A stretch of 64,000 nt of DNA. It comes from Pempheris klunzingeri. Lineage: Eukaryota; Chordata; Actinopteri; Acropomatiformes; Pempheridae. The notes beneath the pieces are model-generated. The model worked only from the letters and a program-made list of their open reading frames with translations. It had not been told where the DNA came from and made no database searches. Shown in pieces: positions 34,340 to 50,700 of the stretch; position 1 is the first letter of the stretch; every line of letters begins with the position of its first letter. Both the position numbers and the translations under genes were made by a program. The DNA is taken from the NCBI RefSeq assembly GCF_042242105.1, contig NC_092032.1, positions 7,483,415 to 7,547,414 of the forward strand, in the 5' to 3' direction.

Positions 34340-34347
34340 ATTTGCAT
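34340..34347 (+). promoter_or_regulatory. Octamer motif in the promoter of receptor gene A
   Basis: ATTTGCAT is a perfect Oct-1/Oct-2 octamer. It lies 138 bases before the first leader ATG and is followed by an Ets/PU.1-type TTCCTC at about 34380. Such sites are common in B-cell and myeloid promoters. In copy B the octamer reads GTTTGCAT. Confidence 0.45.
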
Positions 34348-34477
34348 TCTGGTGAGCTCAGGATGCAACAGAATCTGACTTCCTCATTGCCGTGGTGTGA
34401 ATAGGAAGGATGAAGACTTCTTGTACTTCTGCAGTATTTTAATCGACTGTTATCTTATGTGAAACAGATTATTTCAT

Positions 34478-34562
34478 ATGAAAATAATCTCAGCAGTGAA
34501 GTCACTTTCTGGGTTTGTCACACTTCTGCTGAGTTTCTCCGTTTTAGCTGCAGGCTCGTTTG
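34478..34562 (+). other. Alternative leader exon of receptor gene A
   Basis: An ATG opens 28 codons with a hydrophobic signal-peptide profile (FVTLLLSFSVLAAGSF), then a G and a GTAAGG donor. The exon ends in phase 1, the phase in which the V exon begins, so direct splicing to 35113 gives an in-frame secreted N-terminus. If spliced to the 34769 exon instead, its frame ends at the TGA at 34798-34800. It is conserved in copy B. Confidence 0.55.
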
Positions 34563-34781
34563 GTAAGGACAACTGTTACTGCTCTTTATGTTTCAACTTT
34601 TTACTCCACAGAGTTTATTAATCACTACTTATAACACTGTAACATGTGGTTGTACATGGCATCTTCCTTCCATGAGTGAACTTTGAAATCTAAAAGAACA
34701 TGGATACTTTGTTTAAAGTATGCTTTGATTAAAATGTTGAAACATTACTTTTGTTTCTTCAAATCCAGGTGATCCAGTGTC

Positions 34782-37700
34782 ATGGCAGCCCAGCGTGTGA
34801 ATGTGGTGACAGCCAGCGTGTTACTGAGCGTCCTCTTTGTTTCAGGTGAGCTGTTTGTTCAGTCACCTTTATGTGGAGACCTTAGTCATTTAGTTTGGAG
34901 TTTGGACATTTAGAAACAAAGCAGAAAGAGCGGTGCAGGCAGAGTCACTGTTTCCTACTGTCCTGACAGGAAAGTAAAATGTTTGAAATAGAAATTGTTA
35001 ACAGGACAGCAAAAAAGACCAGCATGCAACACGATGCTGCTTTGTTCCTCATGAACGTTCTCTTGGTGTAGATTTTATCCTCATTTTGTTCATCATGAGT
35101 CTGGTTTTACAGGAGCTTTGGCTGCTTGTCTTCATAATTCAGCCTTCTCCATTACTGCACCAAAGAAGATGGAAGCGCTGAGTGGATCTTGTTTGCGAAT
35201 CCCCTGTAACTTTAGAGCTGAACCACTCAAAGGTTTTGACAGCAGAAGAGAAATCTTTGGAGTGTGGATTAAAAGTCACCCATATTTTGGAAGCAATCCA
35301 AGCAATGTGATTTTCAACAGCAGCAGGACAGTTAAGATCTATCCAATGAAAATTACTGGAAACCTGAATCAGAATAACTGCACCACTTTATTTTCTAATT
35401 TAATCATAAATTACACAAACACATACTTCTTCAGAATTGAGAACCAAGGGTTCAAGGCAACAGCTGTTTGTGATTCTCTTCAAATACGAGTTACAGGTGA
35501 GTTTCTTTTGTTTTCATCAGTCAGATTTTAATGTATAAAATTAGATAAAAAGTGAACTCAGCGACAGGTTTGGTTTAAACAGTGCACTTTTTCATTTTGT
35601 AGGTTTTCACTTTGCCATGAATTTGAATTCAGATTCAACACAAACTGTCTTGTTACAGTTTGTCATCACATTTGCCTTTTGGCATTTAAAAACCCAAAGC
35701 GTTTAGTAATTCCTAACTTATTTTCCAGTGTAAAGTGTGTGTTTAATTTGAAACCACAGATTCTCCTCCGAGGCCCAGTATTGACATCTTGAGCATCTCA
35801 AGTGATCTGAAGGAGCATCAGTCTGTCACTGTAACCTGCTCAGCTTCCACTCCCTGTCCACACTCTCCTCCTAATCTCACCTGGAGTCTCCAACAAGACG
35901 CTCACAGTGAAATAAAGGAAAACCCCGATGGCACCTTAACAACTAAAATCCAGAGGAACATCACTCTGTCAGACCAGCATGATGGACTCAACATCACCTG
36001 TTCTGCCAGATATCCTGTGAATGAAGGAAGAGACGTCAAGACAGCAGAGGAGAGGAAGACTCTCAATGTTTCATGTAAGACGTCCACAGTTTGTTACTGG
36101 ATCCTGTCAGAACATCATGATTTATGGGATGTCACAAGATTTTAATGAGTAAAGTTGATCTCACATTTTCCTCAGATGCTCCTAAAAACACCTCAGCGTC
36201 CATCAGTCCTCCAGGTTTGGTGTCAGCAGGTAGCTGGGTGAACCTGACCTGCTCCAGCAGAGCCAAGCCTCCCGTCAGCCGCTTCACCTGGTTCAAGAAC
36301 AGCACAGATAGACCCATCAATGTGTCTGATGGAGCTATTTACAGCTTCATTGTGACAGATGGAGGAGTTTATTACTGTGTGGCCACAAATGATCTTGGTA
36401 ATCAGACGTCATTGGAATCGATTTATTTGAATGTCGCAGGTAAGTGAAGAACTGAGTGACTGAATCTGATTACTTTAACTTGCTGCTGTGTGGCTATGAA
36501 ATGATGCTATTCAAATAATGGCTACATCAGTTTTGTTTAAAGGTCTGCATTCAACCGTCGTTTTCCTTCAATCACTTTGCTCACAGAGACCTCTGATAGC
36601 TCTCTGCTCTGGGCTTCAGCTCTCGGAGGGACGGCTCTCATCATACTCATCTGCCTTGGGATCTGTGTTTGGTAAGTATCACAAACCTACGTTCACAGTG
36701 AGGACCTGAGCGAGTGTGTGATCTGTTAGCTTTGTTCACAGCTACACCAACAGATTCCTCATATTTACTGTACTAATTAAAAGTATGATTGTTCAGACCA
36801 CCTATTCTGTAACTTAACATCCTCCTTTGGTTTCATCACCAATGAAATTCAGAACATTGGATTTTTAATATAATATTTATCAATATTTTATGTTATTTTA
36901 CTGCTGCACATCCAATAATGTGTGCCCCCCCCAACAGTAATTTCTCTGTAATGGCTGTAACTGTCTACTTAACCTGAAACACAGCATAACTGCTCTGACA
37001 GCTCTCTAATGTCTTCCAGGTGGATTAAATCAAAACATCAAACGCATCAAAAGACTCAGGTGAGAAAATATTAACTTTGCTGAACTGAACTGTTTTACTG
37101 AACTGTGTGCTGTAAAAAGTTCACATCTGTTCACATAAGGTCCTTTTTTTTAAGTTTGGATCTGAAAGTGACAAAAGTTGAAGCACATTTCATATTATCA
37201 CTAAGATGGTTTAATCTGTTCACAGCACAGTAGCTAAAAGCAGCTTTGCAGAGTTTCCTTCTGACTTTGAGGAACTGACTATTTTCTAAAAGTCAAAGGG
37301 ACTTATTCATAGATATCACAAACATTTATTGACCAGTGTAAAGAACAGCAGGAATGTGTTCAAAGTCTTGTTACACCATTGTTAAAGGGACACTTTATTA
37401 CGATTTTTTATACACAATTTTTAACTGGCTTTCAGTCATTACAGAGTTGGTAGATGCAAATAAATGTTGTTTAATTTTCTTCTGTGTTGCCTGCACCCAA
37501 AGATCTCCAGAACTCTCTCGATGTCCGCCGGGTGACAAGAAACAAGTCATCCAGTGGATATTTACCAGCTGTATGGCTGTTGTTTAGTGGAATAACTGAC
37601 TTAACAACAGAATTATTACAGTTAATTCACTGATAAGTCAGTGCAGACAACACAGAGGAATGTCAGTCAGCATTCATTTGCATAAACCACCAACATTATA

Positions 37701-39658
37701 ATGATACAAAGCCGGTTGAAAATCAGCTTGCACCACAATTTCAGTTTCTTTAGGTGGTGTGACTATGAGTGGGTGAACCTGTTGACAAAGCTAAGCTGAC
37801 CCCTTTAGAGATAGAACTAGCTAGTCCACACATCAGACCTAAATGTCTGCTTAATTAGCATAACGCTAATTTCCCACTTTAAACCGTATGAATGTTAAAT
37901 AAAACACATATTCTTCCTGTATGCTAAAGTCATACATACATGTAGAAAAGATTCCTAGTTAGTAAATCTGTTTGATACTAGTGAATGTTACTAAGAACTT
38001 AGGAAGGACTTACACATAGTAAGTCTTTCTTTTTTGTTTTGTGAAATCGCAGCAATTTATTTACTGACAAAGATCTGAGAAATAGGACCTAAACCAGCTT
38101 AATGCAGCTCCTTTTATGCCCATGAAGTGTTCCAGTCTCTGTAATAGGATGTGATGGTCAATGGTATCAAACGCAGCACTCAGATCTAACAAGACAAGTA
38201 CAGAGAGAAGTCTGATGCCATAAGGAGGTCGTGTGTAACCTTCACCAGTGCTTCTCTGTGCTATGGGTCGCTCTGAAACCTGACTGAAAATCCTCAAATA
38301 GACTTTTGGAATTAAGAAAACAGCTGATTGGCTGCTACTTTCTCAAGGATCTTTGAGAGAAAGGGAAGGTTGGATAAAGGTCTATAGTTGGCTAATACAC
38401 CTAAATCAAGAGTGGACCTTTTCAGAAGAGGTTTAATTAGCGGTACTTTAAAGGACTGTGGTACGTAGCCTGTTATTAAAGACTGATTGATCACATCCAG
38501 TAAGGACGTGTTAATTAAGGGTAGGTCTTCCTTAAGTAGCCCAGTAGGAATGGGGTCTAGGGGACAAGTTCACAGTTTAGATGAGGAAATCATTGAAGCC
38601 AATGCACAATAAGCCCAACAACTATTTCCATGATTCCTAAGTTTGAAGTTGAATTAGAGCCTGTTGAGGGCAGGAGGTGATGAATTTTATCTCTATGCTG
38701 TGCCACTCTGAATGAATACAAGGATCAATGGAGTTCTGGCTCTTTGTCAGCCTGGTTAATGTGCTGAACAGGAATCTAGGGCTGTTTTTATTTTCTTCTA
38801 TTAATGAGGAATAATAGGTGGCTCTGGCATTACAGAGGGTCTTGCCAGATTAAGCGTGATTCTTCTAATGTGGTGGCACGCCATATCCCTTTAAGTTTTG
38901 CAGGTCTGGGAATTATACCATGGAGCTTGTGTCTTTTTTTTAATTATCTTCTTTTTTAGAGGGGCAATGGAGTCGAGTGTCATTCGCAGGGAGCCTGAAG
39001 CACTATCGACCAGATAATCAATTTGGGATAAGATTCACATAGGGGTCTTCTATTGTATGGAAACATGGCATTGGCATGGCGCATAGTCCAGTAACAAGAA
39101 ATCAAATGTCATCAGATAATGGTCCGATAGAATAGTTTTGTGGGAAGACTGTTAACTGTTCAAGTTCAATACCATATGACAGAACAAGGTCAAGGGTGGG
39201 GTTAAAGGAGTGCGTGGGTTCATTTACACTCTGAGAGAAGCCAACTGAGTCCGATAGTGAGATGAAAGCAGTGCTCAGACCATCATTATCATCGTCCACA
39301 TGAACATTAAAGTCACCGACTCTAATTACTTTATCTGCACTGAGGACTAAATTATTGACTATGGAAGGATCCTCACAGCATTTCTCGTCTGCTATATCCT
39401 TCACAGAGTCAAGGGGATGATGATCTGGCTCTGCAAACACCAGCCGCCAAGGCAGAAGAAGAAATCCACTATGGGGAGATTGACTTCTCAGGGCGGAGAT
39501 CTGAACCATCGTCGGCCTCAGCCTCAGCCTCAGTGCAGGACTGTGGGCAGCAGCAGGATGTGCTGTACGCACAGGTCAACGTGTCCAAGGCAGCAAAGAG
39601 ATTGAGACAGACCACTGATGGCCCAGAGGACCTCTATGCTCAAGTGAAGATAAAATAA
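34782..39658 (+). CDS. Siglec-like (CD22/MAG-type) inhibitory receptor, copy A
   Basis: Cell-surface sialic-acid-binding Ig-superfamily receptor, predicted to inhibit through ITIMs. Exons: 34782-34845, 35113-35496, 35760-36074, 36176-36439, 36587-36671, 37020-37059, 39407-39658, all with canonical splice sites; 467 aa. Residues 1-22 form a signal peptide. The V-set domain (about 23-149) has the Siglec-type B-strand Cys53 and E-strand Cys111, and the F-strand motif YFFRIE with Arg129, which contacts sialic acid in known Siglecs. Two C2-set domains follow (150-254, 255-342), then a membrane segment (about 349-372). The tail has ITIMs IHYGEI (Tyr406) and VLYAQV (Tyr438) and an ITIM-like DLYAQV (Tyr461), expected to recruit SHP phosphatases. 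The intron before the tail exon is enlarged by a LINE. Start chosen because it keeps the leader in frame with the V exon. An AATAAA lies at 39843-39848. The family is clear; orthology to one mammalian Siglec is not. Confidence 0.9.
37560..39345 (-). mobile_element. Antisense LINE in the last intron of receptor gene A
   Basis: On the minus strand, 39340-39100 encodes an endonuclease piece ([14 protein letters not shown]). 38494-38312 encodes the start of a reverse transcriptase ([17 protein letters not shown]), and 38240-38090 contains [15 protein letters not shown]. The frame is broken and incomplete. Left boundary uncertain. Copy B has different sequence at this point (45300-45935), so most of this DNA is specific to copy A. 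Confidence 0.7.
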
Positions 39659-39983
39659 TACACCTTTATGCACAGGCCTGTTAATGTACACAGACGGGCT
39701 TGGACAGCAAAATGTCATCTTTACTGGCTGCAAGTGAAAAACAAGAGAAAAGGTCCTTATTCTGCAGCTCAGATATTATCACATTATAACTGCTCATATC
39801 TGTGTGCTGACTTGCTGCGGCTCTAAATGTCAGATCAATGCAAATAAAACCCACACAGCTGTAAATATGGAAATATTCTAAATGATCTGAGAGGAGATAA
39901 AAGTGAACTTGACATCACCAGCGATGTAAAAGGATTCATTTAATTTTGAAAAATGTCTTATCTTTAATTTTGTTATCTTACTC

Positions 39984-40131
39984 GTACGATGAGTCCGTCA
40001 CCTTGAGGGAGAAGAAACTATCTACCACCCTGACCAAACAAGCTAAACCTTTCAGTGAGCAATAACCATGAAGTGCTACGTCACTCTTTATTAGAGTATA
40101 CTGTGTGATGTGCTGCGTTGTTAAGTACAAC
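39984..40131 (-). pseudogene. pck2 exon/intron fragment at the duplication junction
   Basis: About 148 bases match 50519-50665 of pck2: the 5' end of one coding exon (around CGTACG..GAGTCCGTCACCTTGAGGGAGAA) and the adjacent intron (AAGCTAAACCTTTCAGTGAGC, AACCATGAAGTGCTACG). It carries small indels and cannot code. It directly follows the end of unit 1. Confidence 0.85.
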
Positions 40132-40331
40132 AAATCTATGTTAATACATTTCACTATGACAGGGCGGACATGTTAAGCTTGACATCCAACTACAGACACA
40201 ATATGATGAAAATAAGGAACTATAAGTGTAGATACTTTTTACAGTTATCACAGTTGTTTCAACCTCCATTACAAAAAAAAAGTGGTGGAGATGTCACTAA
40301 TTATGGCAGCTGGCTTTTTTATTCTTTTTCA

Positions 40332-41472
40332 TGGGTCAATATCACCATAAGGTGCCTTTCAGACTTCCCAATTTCCCCCAAAAAAGCTGAGATTTTCCAT
40401 TTAACTTCACATTTATTGTATTAAGTAGATGTTATGCTGTTAGAAATGCATGTTGGTCAAGCTCCCACACTTTTTTATAAATTAACTGCAAGCAGACAAA
40501 GTACACACAAACAGCAAAATATGTCAGCCCTGTCAGGGACAATTTCAAAGTAGAATAAATATATTGTAATTACATAGTGATTATAAAATGTATATTTTCA
40601 GAAAGCTATTTAGTCCCTTTCTCAACACTATGTTTTAGTAAATGGGAAAAGTATTTGGATAGTAATGAAATTAGGACAACCATGTCCACATGGAAGGCTT
40701 GCTGACAGGGTGGACAATGACAGGGTGGACATTTTTGAATGTTAGCATTTAATGAGCACATGGTGGACCTTCACTTAGCAACATGATTCAGTTAGCAAGC
40801 GGACTGTGTACTGTTTAACACATATATTTAGAATTTCTGAAAGGTTTTTATATTAATTGATATTTCACTATGACAGAGTGGACATGTTAAGCTTGACAAC
40901 ATCTAAACTAAACACCTAATATGATGAAAATTACGAAACATAAGTGTAAATATCTACTCTGCAACTAGCCACTGTTTCAGTCTCCACTGAAGAAACACAA
41001 AATGCTGGTTGTGATCTCACTGAAAACATCAGCGGGTTTCTTAAAGGGGCATTTAGCCCAAAATGACAGGGTGGACAGCAATCTCAGGGACACATGCAAA
41101 ATGTTCAATACTATTATGAAAATAGAATATACATGATCAAAATGACTTGTTTTATCAAATAACTTGTTGTGACAATAAAACCATGTAAAAAAAAATGTTT
41201 GATTTAGTATCATTTAACCACTTATTACACACACTGAAGTTAGCAGAACAGTGTGTGGGACATGCCAAAATCATGTACATCCAAAGAAAAAAAATGGTAT
41301 AAAATGAAGGAAACACATTTTAAGAGACATATTATTGTACTGATATGTGTGCAAATCTTTGGTCACTTATAATAAGACCTCAGAGTTTAATTATTCTGCT
41401 ACATTTTCATGATGACTGAGTGATTCTCATGGGGACACCAAAGGCACTTTATAGTGATATTGACCCTCATAC
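40332..41472. mobile_element. TIR element upstream of receptor gene B
   Basis: Left end ATGGGTCAATATCACCATAA and right end the near reverse complement (TATAGTGATATTGACCCTCAT). There is no clear transposase frame. Inside, GACAGGGTGGAC-type units recur around 40708, 40720 and 41062. A related segment at 40145-40290 resembles 40850-41000 as a direct repeat. Confidence 0.5.
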
Positions 41473-42376
41473 TTTATTTTTCAAAATGAATGGCAAACTT
41501 TTTTCTAGTGAGTGTGCATTAAGTATCTTTGTCTACATTCAATAAACAAGGTTTGATTCCTGGATATAATCCAGCTATTAAATTATCTCGACATGTAGCG
41601 TCAGCGGCAGACATTGCAATTTTTCACAGCAAATTTTTTGTATGTGTTTGATGTTGTTTTGATGCTATAAAAGTGTTTAAATAGAACTTCATTAAGAGAT
41701 TGAAAAGTGATGGGATGTAAAGTGATGGAGTCATGACCAGAGCACTGAGAAAAAGCTGAAAACAATGAATAAATAGAGGAAGTTGGTGAGCTGCTACTGT
41801 CCACAAGTTCTTCATAGTGACTGCTATTACACAGTTCTCTGCAACAAAACCATCAGACTGACTGTTTCATGTGTGGCAAGAATCACATCGTCTGAAAAGA
41901 GCAGAAAGCCGTCTGTCTGTTACCACAGTCCTTCCTGCTCAACATGATCTGTATCTCCTGTGACTCTGTGCTACTTTAAATATTATGATCACAATAAAAC
42001 ACTGGCTCTCTACACTGATGGTTTTGTAATAAACAAAAAAGTACTCAAAATAAAACAGCCTCAATATTCCGTGTCTAAATTTTACATTGCTTCATACATT
42101 TTCTGAAATTTGTCACTATTATGATTAATGATAAATCACTAATGATTACTGCACTAATATGTACTAAAAACGAAGATAAAAAATTATGCAGGTGTGCAGT
42201 AAGGTGTGTGATAAAAATAATCTGAGAATAAAGAGGGCGTTTGCATTCTGGTGAGCTCAGGATGCAACAGAATCTGACTTCCTCATTGCCGTGGTGTGAA
42301 TAGGAAGGATGAAGACTTCTTGTACTTCTGCAGTATTTTAATCGACTGTTATCTTATGTGAAACAGATTATTTCAT

Positions 42377-42461
42377 ATGAAAACAATCTCAGCAGTGAAG
42401 TCACTTTCTGGGTTTGTCACACTTCTGCTGAGTTTCTCCGTTTTAGCTGCAGGCTCCTTTG
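42377..42461 (+). other. Alternative leader exon of receptor gene B
   Basis: Counterpart of 34478-34562: same length, same phase-1 donor, with one Ile-to-Thr and one silent change. The ATG and hydrophobic core are retained. Confidence 0.55.
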
Positions 42462-42680
42462 GTAAGGACAACTGTTACTGCTCTTTATGTTTCAACTTTT
42501 TACTCCACAGAGTTTATTAATCACTACTTATAACACTGTAACATGTGGTTGTACATGGCATCTTCCTTCCATGAGTGAACTTTGAAATTTAAAAGAACAT
42601 GAATACTTTGTTTAAAATGTGCTTTGATTAAAATGTTGAAACATTACTTTTGTTTCTTCAAATCCAGGTGATCCAGTGTC

Positions 42681-45600
42681 ATGGCAGCCCAGCGTGTGAA
42701 TGTGGTGACAGCCAGCGTGTTACTGAGCGTCCTCTTTGTTTCAGGTGAGCTGTTTGTTCAGTCACCTTTATGTGGAGACCTTAGTCATTTAGTTTGGAGT
42801 TTGGACATTTAGAAACAAAGCAGAAAGAGCGGTGCAGGCAGAGTCACTGTTTCCTACTGTCCTGACAGGAAAGTAAAATGTTTGAAATAGAAATTGTTAA
42901 CAGGACAGCAAAAAAGACCAGCATGCAACACGATGCTGCTTTGTTCCTCATGAACGTTCTCTTGGTGTAGATTTTATCCTCATTTTGTTCATCATGAGTC
43001 TGGTTTTACAGGAGCTTTGGCTTCTTGTCTTCATAAGTCAGCCTTCTCCATTACTGCACCAAAGAAGATGGAAATGCTGAGTGGATCTTGTTTGCGAATC
43101 CCCTGTAACTTTAGAGTTGAACCACTCAAAGGTTTTGACAGCAGAAGACAAATCTTTGGAGTGTGGATTAAAAGTGACCCAAATTTTGGAAGCAATCCAA
43201 GCAATGTGATTTTCAACAGCAGCAGGACAGTTAACACATATCCAATGAAAATTACTGGAAACCTGAATCAGAATAACTGCACCACTTTATTTTCTAATTT
43301 AATCATAAATTACACAAACACATACTTCTTCAGAATTGAGAACAAAGGGTTCATGGCAACAGCTGTTTGTGAACCTCTTCAAATACGAGTTACAGGTGAG
43401 TTTCTTTTGTTTTCATCAGTCAGATTTTAATGTATAAAATTAGATAAAAAGTGAACTCAGCGACAGGTTTGGTTTAAACAGTGCACTTTTTCATTTTGGA
43501 GTTTTTCACTTTTTCATGAATTTAAATTCAGATTCAACACAAACTGTCTTGTTACAGTTTGTCATCACATTTGCCTTTTGGCATTTAAAAACCCAAAGCG
43601 TTTAGTAATTCCTAACTTATTTTCCAGTGTAAAGTGTGTGTTTGATTTGAAACCACAGATTCTCCTCCGAGGCCCAGTATTGACATCTCAGGTGATCTGA
43701 AGGAGCATCAGTCTGTCACTGTAACCTGCTCAGCTTCCACTCCCTGTCCACACTCTCCTCCTAATCTCACCTGGAGTCTCCAACAAGACGCTCACAGTGA
43801 AATAAAGGAAAACCCCGATGGCACCTTAACAACTAAAATCCAGAGGAACATCACTCTGTCAGACCAGCATGATGGACTCAACATCACCTGTTCTGCCAGA
43901 TATCCTGTGAATGAAGGAAGAGACGTCAAGACAGCAGAGGAGAGGAAGACTCTCAATGTTTCATGTAAGACGTCCACAGTTTGTTACTGGATCCTGTCAG
44001 AACATCATGATTCATGGGATGTCACAAGATTTTAATGAGTAAAGTTGATCTCACATTTTCCTCAGATGCTCCTAAAAACACCTCAGCGTCCATCAGTCCT
44101 CCAGGTTTGGTGTCAGCAGGTAGCTGGGTGAACCTGACCTGCTCCAGCAGAGCCAAGCCTCCCGTCAGCCGCTTCACCTGGTTCAAGAAGAAGAGCAGCA
44201 CAGATAGACCCATCAATGTGTCTGATGGAGCTATTTACAGCTTCAATGTGACAGATGGAGGAGTTTATTACTGTGTGGCCACAAATGATCTTGGTAATCA
44301 GACGTCATTGGAATCGATTTATTTGAATGTCGCAGGTAAGTGAAGAACTGAGTGACTGAATCTGATTACTTTAACTTGCTGCTGTGCGGCTATGAAATGA
44401 TGCTATTCAAATAATGGCTACATCAGTATTGTATAAAGGTCTGCATTCAACCGTCGTTTTCCTTCAATCACTTTGCTCACAGAGACCTCTGATAGCTCTC
44501 TGCTCTGGGCTTCAGCTCTCAGATGGACGGCTCTCATCATACTCATCTGCCTTGGGATCTGTGTTTGGTAAGTATCACAAACCTACGTTCACAGTGAGGA
44601 CCTGAGCGAGTGTGTGATCTGTTAGCTTTGTTCACAGCTACACCAACAGATTCCTCATATTTACATGATTGTATGATTAACGTGGTTGCTTGATTAAAAG
44701 TATTGTTGTTCAGTCCACCTATTCTGTAACTTAACCCTCTGGAACAGCAGCACACTGTCTACTTAACCTGAAACACAGCATAACTGCTCTGACAGCTCTC
44801 TAATGTCTTCCAGGCGGATTAAATCAAAACATCAAACGCATCAAAAGACTCAGGTGAGAAAATATTAACCTTTGCTGAACTGAACTGTTTTACTGAACTG
44901 TGTGCTGTAAAAAGTTCACATCTGTTCACATAAGGTCTCTATTTTTAAGTTTGGATCTGAAAGTGACAAAAGTTGAAGCACATTTCATATTATCACTAAG
45001 ATGGTTTAATCTGTTCACAGCACAGTAGCTAAAAGCAGCTTTGCAGAGTTTCCTTCTGACTTTGAGGAACTGACTATTTTCTAAAAGTCAAAGGGACTTA
45101 TTCATAGATATCACAAACATTTATTGACCAGTGTAAAGAACAGCAGGAATGTGTTCAAAGTCTTGTTACACCATTGTTAAAGGGACACTTTATTACGATT
45201 TTTTATACACAATTTTTAACTGGCTTTCAGTCATTACAGAGTTGGTAGATGCAAATAAATGTTGTTTAATTTTCTTCTGTGTTGCCTGCACCCAAAGATC
45301 CCCAAGAAAGCCCAACCCTTGAGTTTGTCCTTTTTACTGAGCAATAACTCTGTGTCTTACTGACACAGTGAGTGTATGGGACCATAGTCGTTTGGATCTG
45401 CATAGCTATGATCAGCAATTTTAATTTGATTTTTGCCTAATGGGAGCTTATATAAGTTGAGTAATACAGACCTGAGAATCGAACCCTGGGGAAAGAATAA
45501 AAACTTGTTCAGCTTGAACTGTCCTTACTTGAATATTAAGTTTGTTACAACACGGATCTGATGCCAGAGAAAGTCTCCTATAGCATCACTACATTCGCTC

Positions 45601-46078
45601 AACTTTACACAGTCAGTCAGAATCACATATAATCAGGCCACCAGAGGAGGCGGACTGTGAGTGTTACTATAGGTCGAGACCCTTCCATTATTATTAGGGC
45701 AGTCAGGAACATCAACAGGGCTGTCATCTAATCGTGACCTCTGGACACCCAGAATCTGCTCAGCTATGCCAAGTGTGAAGGACTGTGAGGCACATTAAGG
45801 CCAACTAACCATGTCAGTGCACATTTAACTTTTCTTTATACCCAGATTTTTTCCCCACAACACCTTCATCGGTGCTGTGGTGTGGTCAGAAACCAGGTTT
45901 AAGTTTGTGCACAAGGCCATTTAATGAGCATTGGTTCATGTGGAATTATTGACTGTGGAAGGATCCTTCACAGAGTCAAGGGGATGATGATCTGGCTCTG
46001 CAAACACCAGCCGCCAAGGCAGAAGAAGAAATCCACTATGGGGGGAATGACTTCTCAGGGCGGAGATCTGAACCGTAG
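42681..46078 (+). CDS. Siglec-like receptor, copy B, ITIM-less with membrane Arg
   Basis: Exons: 42681-42744, 43012-43395, 43659-43964, 44066-44335, 44483-44567, 44814-44853, 45974-46078; 417 aa. The architecture of copy A is kept: signal peptide, V-set with Cys53, Cys111 and Arg129, two C2 domains, one membrane segment. C2-1 is three codons shorter and C2-2 two codons longer. In the membrane segment Gly-Gly of copy A has become Arg355-Trp356. In the tail the first ITIM is changed to IHYGGN, and a TAG at 46076-46078 ends the protein before the other two Tyr motifs. All upstream exons are open, so a truncated but surface-capable receptor is expected. Such a receptor could be activating through a DAP12-like adaptor or a decoy; this is inference. 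A recent pseudogene is the alternative. Confidence 0.8.
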
Positions 46079-47794: not shown

Positions 47795-50700
47795 TTAATT
47801 GTGCACTCTGTCCTCCAGCGCCTTCAGCTCAGCCTCCACCTGAGCCGGTAGATCAGCTCCAACCTGCTGAGTGAAGTAAGCTCTCAGCTCTTTGGTCTCC
47901 TTCTGCCAGAAAGCCTTGGGCACGTCGAACAGGGCGCCCATATCCACCTTACTGCCCAGACCTTTAGTGTCGATGGCGCCATCTACTGGCAACCAGCCGA
48001 TAACGCTCTTCTTGGACGCCTCGTCCTCTCTCTCCCGGCTGCAGCGCTTGAAGATCCACTCCAGTACGCGGGCATTCTCGCCGAAGCCGGGCCAGAGGAA
48101 GGCACCGCTCGCCGGGTCCTTTCTGAACCAGTTGACGTGGAAGATCTTGGGCAGATGAGTGGGCGCCTTTCGGCTCTCCATGCTCAGCCAGTGAGCGAGG
48201 TAGTCGCCAAAGTTGTAGCCGAAGAACGGCCGCATGGCGAAGGGGTCATGCATGATAACCTTGCCTGGAGGAAAACATGAAACACTTTGTAATTCTGATG
48301 GAAAACAGCTTTAGTGCTGTTGAGAGTAACTCCCTCATCATCCTGTTATCATAAAACATCTCATCACTCACATTAGTGTCTAGCAGTACTACCGGTGATG
48401 ACACAATATCTAAGAACTAGTCCGTACAAAAATATAATCCTTCTTTCTTTTAGAGCTGTAAAACAGCACAAATGTATTTACATGAGTTTAGATCACAGGA
48501 ATCTCAGGTGTGTGAGTTTGTACCTTGATGCTCAGCAGCTGCAGTGGCCTCGGACCTCATGGCTGCTCCAACAAACACTCCGTGTTGCCAGTTGAAGGAC
48601 TCGTAGACCAGAGGGACTCCTGACAACATCATTTCATCATGTTTACTGCACAGCTGCTTGTGTGCTGTAAATGTTTCCTCACTTCTCATGTTGGTATGTA
48701 ATACAAACTGCGTACTTATTACTGAGTAATAATAATGGTTAACATGTTCAACCTTTTGCTATATTAGTTTGTTATTGTGACAAAGATGATCAGGACTGTA
48801 ATATTGACCCTGAAATTACAGATATACAAATTTTAGCCTATTAATTTAACCTACCTTTTTAAAATTATTTCTTAATTAACTTCAGCTTGCATCCCTCTGT
48901 CAGTCACAACACAGAAGACTACAAACCACAGCTTAAGATGTGAAATAAAGCTCATCAAATAATGTCTGTGTCTGTTTAGAGAAAAACTTGATGTGTATTC
49001 AATGCGAGCAGCGCCAACCTTCGGGCCTCCTGCCTCCAAAGATAATGGCATCGATGGGGACGCCCTCCTCACTCTCCCACTGGGGGTCAATGATGGGACA
49101 CTGAGCTGCCGGGGCGCAGAAGCGGGAATTGGGGTGGGCACATGGAGAGGCGCCTCCTTTACACAGACAGGAAACAACAGTTAAACTAAAAAATACCACT
49201 AGATGGCACTGTATACACTGTGGCTGTTCACTCCTAATTTCAGATTCAGATGTCTTTATTGGCAAACACATCATTCAAGCTAAAATTAAATCAGTAAAAC
49301 TGCTGAATATTCATTAGAAACAAACAATCATCTTCCATAGAAATGCTAAACTTCAAGAGGGACACTTTAGATTGGGGTCTTTATAAAGGCTGGGGGTTCC
49401 AGTCAGATGCTACCTTGCTTCCAGGTTTTGCCGTGCCAGTCTGTGAGTGTGACCCCGGCTGCAGGGGGGTCAAGGCCCTCCCACCACACTCCTCCATCAC
49501 TGGTCTCTCCAACGTTGGTGAACATGGTGTTTCTGGCGATGGTGGCCATGGCGTAGGGGTTGGTCTTGTCTGAGGTGCCAGGAGCCACTCCGAAAAAGCC
49601 GTTCTCTGGGTTGATGGCTCTCAGCTTACCTGCAGAATCAGATGAGTCAGTAACACGAGGATTTACTACACTACCTGTGGACCATCAAAGGGATTGTTTG
49701 ACCGCGAGCCGATCTCCTCCGTCTCACCTTGGCTGTCAAACTTCATCCACGCAATGTCGTCGCCCACGCACTCGACCTTCCAGCCTGGCAGAGATGGTTT
49801 CATCATGGCCAAGTTGGTTTTACCACAGGCACTGGGGAAGGCTGCCGCTATGTAACGCTTCACCCCCTGAGGGTTGGTGATACCCAGGATCTGAGGAGAG
49901 GTGAAGAAAATGTTAAAAAGACAAGTGACCCTGTAATTATTACTCATCCTTTCATGAATAGTCATTACTCAAAACTGCTGAAAGAGCACCGTGGCCATGC
50001 ATCATTGACAGAAGAGATACTACAGTTTTGTAGACTACTACAGTAGTCTTCCTGCACTCTCTACCATGGAGAGTTACACACTCACCAGCATGTGTTCAGC
50101 CAGCCAACCTTCATCTTTGGCGATGCGGGAGGCAATACGAAGGGCGAAACACTTCTTCCCCAGGAGAGAATTTCCTCCATAGCCGCTGCCGAAGGACATG
50201 ATCTGCCTGATGTCTGGCAGGTGAGATATCAGCACCTTGTCGGGGTTACAGGGCCACGAGTTCATCAGAGGAGCTGGAGAGGAGACAGGCAGAGAGATTA
50301 GAGGGACAGCTGTGGAACAGGTACAGGTATGGTGAACAGGGGAGATGAGGATAGAGCCAGAGACGGCAGGAGAGGGGATGGATGGGGGGGGGGGGTTGCA
50401 CCTTTGAGTGGTAAAGGTCGTCCCACTGAGTGCTGACAGCGGACAAACTCGGCTCCTTCAGCCAGTTTGTTCAGGACGGGAGTGCCCATGCGCGTCATGA
50501 TCCCCATACTGGCCACAACGTACGGCGAGTCCGTCACCTTGAGGGAGAACAAAATGTTTACCCTGATCAACAAGCTAAACCTTTCAGTGAGCAATAACCA
50601 TGAAGTGCTACGACTCTTTATTAGAGCATACTGTGTGATGTGTTGTGTTATTAAGTACAACACAGCAGGCCTGTTGCTTTAATGCATGCTTTTTTCTGAG

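Follow-up and report, generated by a model that had tools for sequence, protein, structure and literature searches.

Diversifying selection on the V domain, acting over a backbone kept alike by conversion, is the likely explanation for the way in which two neighbouring Siglec-type receptor genes of the fish Pempheris klunzingeri differ; we put its probability at roughly 60%. The two genes, copy A and copy B, belong to one 22.5-Mb sequence, on which they are 7.9 kb apart, and fall within a window of 64,000 nucleotides (NC_092032.1, positions 7,483,415 to 7,547,414, forward strand). An earlier note on this DNA had offered two ideas, strong diversifying selection on the ligand-binding domain or conversion of the V exon from a third paralogue. 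The first is the better supported, because replacements in the V exon occurred at about four times the neutral rate, silent changes in it match the neutral rate, and the changed sites are variable in the family. The word "strong" does not hold, the codon model being not significant, and selection is taken to be likely and moderate in strength.

The sequences at the centre of the comparison are the following, with exon borders in both copies predicted from splice signals and relatives.

35113-35496, plus strand: copy A V-set exon, Siglec-type, with Arg129 in YFFRIE
43012-43395, plus strand: copy B V-set exon, with 15 substitutions relative to copy A
34846-35112, plus strand: copy A intron 1, identical to copy B 42745-43011 (0/267)

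A recount over the 384 bases of the V exon confirmed the 15 substitutions in 13 codons, all 13 of which change the residue; the residues named before (A26S, N30K, A43M, A57V, E68Q, H77D, Y79N, K96N, I97T, Q133K, K136M, D142E, S143P) are correct if M1 is placed at 34782. The claim that no change is silent is not quite exact. Codon 97 reads ATC in copy A and ACA in copy B, and since either path between them holds one silent step (35339 C/A when copy C, a third gene described below, is the reference), the exon carries 14 replacements and 1 silent change by single steps. From the leader at 34782 to the first cytoplasmic exon we count 19 replacements and 1 silent change, where about 20 and none had been given. 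The identity of the preceding intron was borne out, as was a C2-1 exon with one replacement and a 9-base indel. Introns 2, 3 and 4 differ at 6/263, 1/102 and 3/147 positions. In the block 34341-36768, 16/1316 non-coding bases differ (1.2%), two of the 16 sitting in a candidate alternative leader exon, and introns 1-4 alone give 10/778 (1.3%). The identical run that contains intron 1 is 403 bases long (34721-35123); in shuffles such a run arises somewhere in the block with P 0.06, and it is therefore unremarkable by itself.

Two neighbouring stretches that are highly identical over about 3 kb in all might be taken for an assembly or allelic artefact, that is, a false duplication. This is extremely unlikely, given the 7.9 kb between the copies on a single sequence, the tail exon regions that are 13% apart and the upstream pieces that are 16-29% apart. 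Furthermore, passages of the assembly paper describe the published assembly as haplotype-phased and built from HiFi reads at 104x plus Hi-C, haplotype 1 measuring 646.32 Mb (PMC12488967), in line with the 645.9 Mb of the genome searched here.

The excess of replacements was measured against neutral DNA of the same duplicate. V replacement sites differ at 14/298 (4.7%), which exceeds the non-coding rate (p = 0.0003) as well as the rate of introns 1-4 (p = 0.002), whereas V silent sites, at 1/83 (1.2%), show no difference from the non-coding rate (p = 1). C2 replacement sites differ at only 2/436 (0.5%), not different from non-coding DNA (p = 0.27) and clearly below the V replacement sites (p = 0.0001). 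Fifteen of the 35 substitutions in the block are concentrated in 352 bases (P 0.003), and 1 silent change in 20 over the exons has P 0.013-0.034 (kappa 3 to 1). Five of the six differences in intron 2 fall within 26 bases (35600-35625 versus 43499-43524), a small cluster; when these five sites are left out, the contrast between V replacement sites and non-coding DNA grows (p = 2.5e-5).

These rates bear on relaxed constraint, under which copy B would be a decaying pseudogene with a drifting V exon. The tail exon of copy B does contain a premature stop, and there is a precedent in the converted exons of primate SIGLEC11/16, for which relaxed constraint is reported in a part of PMC5701461. However, drift cannot push replacements above the neutral rate, which they exceed fourfold here, and the V frame of copy B is open with the V cysteines and the arginine kept, making this a very unlikely account.

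The changed V sites are positions at which the family is variable, with a mean entropy of 2.10 bits compared with 1.25 bits elsewhere (permutation p = 0.002; 131 distinct V rows from 145 relatives, including P0026, a public model from the window itself). Measured against copy C as the reference, the change is in B alone at 10 sites and in A alone at 4, and one further site has a different base in each of the three copies; the sites of these classes are interspersed. Among the 131 family rows, Met43 of copy B occurs in none and its Glu142 in 4, while Lys96 of copy A occurs in 6 and Ser143, common to A and C, in 11. Reference and family states together indicate changes in both copies, probably more of them in B. 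In a structure model of the V domain (mean predicted local distance difference test score, pLDDT, 77.5; residue number = V position + 22), the loop that follows strand 48-52 is predicted to contain residues 77 and 79; residue 133 would come right after the strand that carries Arg129, and residue 136 would be in the next short strand. These are regions that we take to be where mammalian Siglecs contact their ligand.

The 645.9-Mb assembly was searched for further V exons. Four close ones were found, all on the contig of the window (C21), with copies C and D 110-125 kb from A and B; four distant V exons were located on C8.

C21 7643002-7643385, minus strand: copy C V exon
C21 7636594-7636920, minus strand: copy D V exon

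The four copies form a mosaic. Copies A and C are 6.2% apart in the V exon, compared with 31.6% in intron 1, 40.7% in intron 2 and 32.9% in the membrane exon, the alike stretch spanning about 35087-35535 by eye. In C2-1, intron 3 and C2-2 the divergence is 0-6% whichever two copies are compared, whereas about 40% or more separates A or B from C or D in introns 2 and 4. Copies C and D are identical in intron 4 and the membrane exon and 25% apart in their V exons. We read this pattern of alike and unlike blocks as the result of block-wise conversion or exon exchange. In addition, intron 2 of copy C holds a 68-base relic of a V exon (7642805-7642872, minus strand; 81% like B), one frame of which reads ...SYTDTYSFRIEN...; since this decayed relic stands beside an A-type V exon, the present V exon of copy C would have arrived beside an older one.

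Conversion is thus real in the family, and the part of the earlier note that invoked it is right to this extent; the mosaic does not show it to be the source of the V exon of B. A possible, though doubtful, alternative is a related donor V exon, since lost or missing from this assembly, whose sequence replaced all or patches of the V exon of B (or A) by conversion. The replacement excess would then be inherited from the donor, because replacements generally outnumber silent changes between exons of this family; with the silent share of 17-20% seen among paralogues, at most 1 silent change in 15 has P 0.17-0.26. Exchange of V and C2 blocks in the family and the decayed second V exon of copy C are in keeping with such an event. 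Since A, B and C hardly differ at the intron edges flanking the V exon (35087-35112 and 35497-35501), the ends of a converted tract would be invisible. However, no B-type V exon was found elsewhere in the assembly, the five matches among the best candidates scored being B itself, A (96%), C (92%), D (75%) and the 68-base relic (81%); the third copy with a B-type exon that the earlier note had envisaged is not among them. Sites specific to B and to A are interspersed and do not form one tract, the rarity of Met43 and Glu142 in the family speaks against such a donor, and of the 13 states of B none of 130 relatives carries more than 7, which is the maximum for those of A as well (on average 3.2 for B and 4.1 for A). 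The V silent divergence, resting on one silent change, equals that of the flanking non-coding DNA, so that the exon does not appear to predate the DNA around it. Copy C was rejected as a whole-exon donor: its V exon differs at 24 positions from A and at 30 from B, further than A from B (15), and the sites are interspersed.

Several results weigh against selection as the cause. The ratio of 14:1 is not significant when taken alone (binomial P 0.13 with kappa 1, 0.08 with kappa 2), and none of the six V pairs among the four copies is significant (P 0.08-0.42). Codon likelihood with omega free versus omega = 1 gives omega 3.9, 2.0 and 1.6 for two, three and four copies (p = 0.13, 0.15 and 0.11), for which reason the case for selection was not rested on the ratio of replacement to silent rates (dN/dS) alone. 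The comparison with introns and more paralogues proposed in the earlier note supports selection in the intron contrast; omega is above 1 and not significant. Between the A/B and C/D clusters the C2 exons also show more replacements than silent changes (C2-1 A/C 5.5:0.5; C2-2 A/C 11.5:1.5 and A/D 12.5:2.5), so that the excess is specific to V only within the A/B pair. The P values are somewhat optimistic, as the V exon and the test were chosen after the pattern had been seen, and the sample consists of four close V exons in one assembly. Not every copy is clearly functional, given the premature stop in the tail of B and a 4-base frame-shifting gap in C2-1 of copy C (C2-1 of copy D is open). Finally, PILR-alpha (Z 10.7) is tied with Siglecs as a structural match of the V model, for which MAG is best (Z 11.6).

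For diversifying selection we propose the following course. A and B are neighbouring members of a percomorph-fish Siglec (CD22-like) family with a leader, one V-set domain, two C2-set domains and a membrane segment. A recent duplication or conversion probably left their 5' part, from the leader to the first cytoplasmic exon, almost without differences, as suggested by a neutral divergence of about 1.2%, and the tail exon regions, 13% apart, would be older. Thereafter the V exon appears to have gained replacements at about four times the neutral rate and silent changes at the neutral rate, which we attribute to diversifying selection on the domain that binds the ligand; the sialylated ligand bound has probably changed as a result. 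Two kinds of block would have been exchanged over more than 100 kb, one made up of C2-1, intron 3 and C2-2 and one of the V exon, the latter between the A/B and C loci; this would have kept the backbone uniform and moved V exons.

The two copies also differ in membrane segment and tail. Copy A, whose exons give an open frame of 467 residues, has three motifs resembling immunoreceptor tyrosine-based inhibitory motifs (ITIMs) in its tail, IHYGEI, VLYAQV and DLYAQV. Copy B has kept none: the first reads IHYGGN, and the premature stop precedes the other two. In its membrane segment Arg-Trp replaces the Gly-Gly of A (44521, 44524), so that a basic Arg stands, by eye, some eight residues from the start of the segment and within its first third. 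A crude scan for membrane segments and the usual form of the ITIM covered 119 of the 145 relatives, those of at least 350 residues without P0026, and misplaced some segments. It assigned 76 to an uncharged segment with an ITIM-like motif, 20 to a basic segment without, 6 to an uncharged segment without and 4 to a basic segment with a motif, and found no segment in 13. The family thus seems to comprise inhibitory and Lys-bearing forms; one class of relatives in other fishes has Lys in the membrane segment and no ITIM, the sequence there differing from that of B. No Lys-type membrane segment turned up when the window and three further stretches of 8-10 kb were scanned for its motif.

Because the change from the family's GG to RW puts a basic residue near the position of the Lys of activating-type relatives in other fishes, and because all ITIMs are lost, copy B could be a newly made activating (or non-inhibitory) partner of an inhibitory copy A, the V domains having been driven apart as one partner followed a changing ligand. 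We regard this as unlikely. If true, the pair would differ in this from the paired Siglecs of primates, in which the V domains stay similar.

The V domain is of Siglec type as judged by sequence and modelled fold. All four copies, A to D, keep Arg129 (in YFFRIE), whose counterparts in the alignment lie in FRFE of sialoadhesin and in FRGD of MAG. Pfam Ig matches cover both C2 regions, which are followed by a single membrane exon; Pfam gave no match inside the V exon, and a V-set match (22.2 bits, cut-off 26) at residues 166-198 lies in C2-1. Of 8000 candidates scored, 1124 proteins are relatives at E <= 0.001; the 120 matches listed are teleost by name wherever the species is stated, two also carrying a ferret-record label. 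Teleost proteins automatically named CD22-like, "sialoadhesin-like", "Siglec-12-like" or "VCAM1-like" belong by sequence to the same family as A and B. The best solved relatives of the V domain are MAG (Siglec-4) and sialoadhesin (Siglec-1), with about 23-28% identity over aligned residues; both are longer receptors than A and B.

Mammalian CD33-related Siglecs (SIGLEC11/SIGLEC16, SIGLEC5/SIGLEC14) resemble the fish genes in having a V-set domain with a binding arginine, C2 domains and an ITIM tail, and as in the A/B family the first Ig domain changes fast and neighbouring genes are repeatedly converted (passages of PMC6288428 and PMC5701461). In primate paired Siglecs, however, conversion reaches the binding-domain exon, and it is said in part of PMC5701461 to keep ligand preference alike within a pair, whereas the V exons of A and B differ and the rest of their 5' part is alike; two C2 domains also set the fish genes apart from mammalian paired Siglecs. 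Fast V change together with conversion is ordinary in kind for Siglecs and is well shown in the A/B pair. The pair extends to a CD22-like family of fish a mode known from mammalian CD33-related Siglecs, and the contrast within this single recent duplicate is clear; it offers a small system in which evolution of the V exon can be separated from conversion of the backbone, and it defines 13 V residues as candidates for ligand change. According to PMC7226832, four Siglecs are found regularly in fish; the words "positive selection" are absent from the text of that paper. Among titles and abstract openings, with subscription journals mostly outside the search, we found no report of V-exon selection in the teleost CD22-like family.

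The other predicted exons of the two genes are listed below.

34478-34562, plus strand: candidate alternative leader exon of copy A, with start codon, hydrophobic stretch and splice donor, phase 1
34782-34845, plus strand: copy A leader exon, beginning the 467-residue open frame
35760-36074, plus strand: copy A C2-1 exon
36176-36439, plus strand: copy A C2-2 exon
36587-36671, plus strand: copy A transmembrane exon, membrane stretch uncharged
37020-37059, plus strand: copy A first cytoplasmic exon
39407-39658, plus strand: copy A tail exon with the three ITIM-like motifs, open to its stop
42681-42744, plus strand: copy B leader exon, identical to that of A
43659-43964, plus strand: copy B C2-1 exon, differing from A by one replacement and a gap of 9 bases; copy C has the gap, D does not
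44066-44335, plus strand: copy B C2-2 exon, with one replacement and 6 extra bases relative to A, the latter also in C and D
44483-44567, plus strand: copy B transmembrane exon, RW in place of GG
44814-44853, plus strand: copy B first cytoplasmic exon
45974-46078, plus strand: copy B tail exon, ending at the premature stop, first ITIM-like motif IHYGGN

The counterpart of the candidate second leader in copy B is 42377-42461, and in both copies it would splice in phase to the V exon. The sea bass relative P0028 shows the same ...AGSFG-ALADC junction. If coding, the candidate would add one replacement (34485) and one silent change (34558) to the comparison of A and B.

The public protein P0026 (Pempheris klunzingeri, "cell adhesion molecule 3-like", 570 residues) is 99% identical over 65% of the query. 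In its model the V exon (from Met41 on) and the first C2 exons come from A, and the C2, membrane and tail exons joined to them come from B; the membrane and tail exons of A and the V exon of B are skipped. This fusion of A and B (34782-46078) may be an annotation error, and sea bass P0028 likewise has four C2 domains.

Directly behind the tail region of copy A, 39983-40132 is an 89% copy of 50519-50662, which lies within a minus-strand gene at about 47.8-51.5 kb, putatively a phosphoenolpyruvate carboxykinase gene. The likeness of these two segments suggests an old duplication with an inner deletion.

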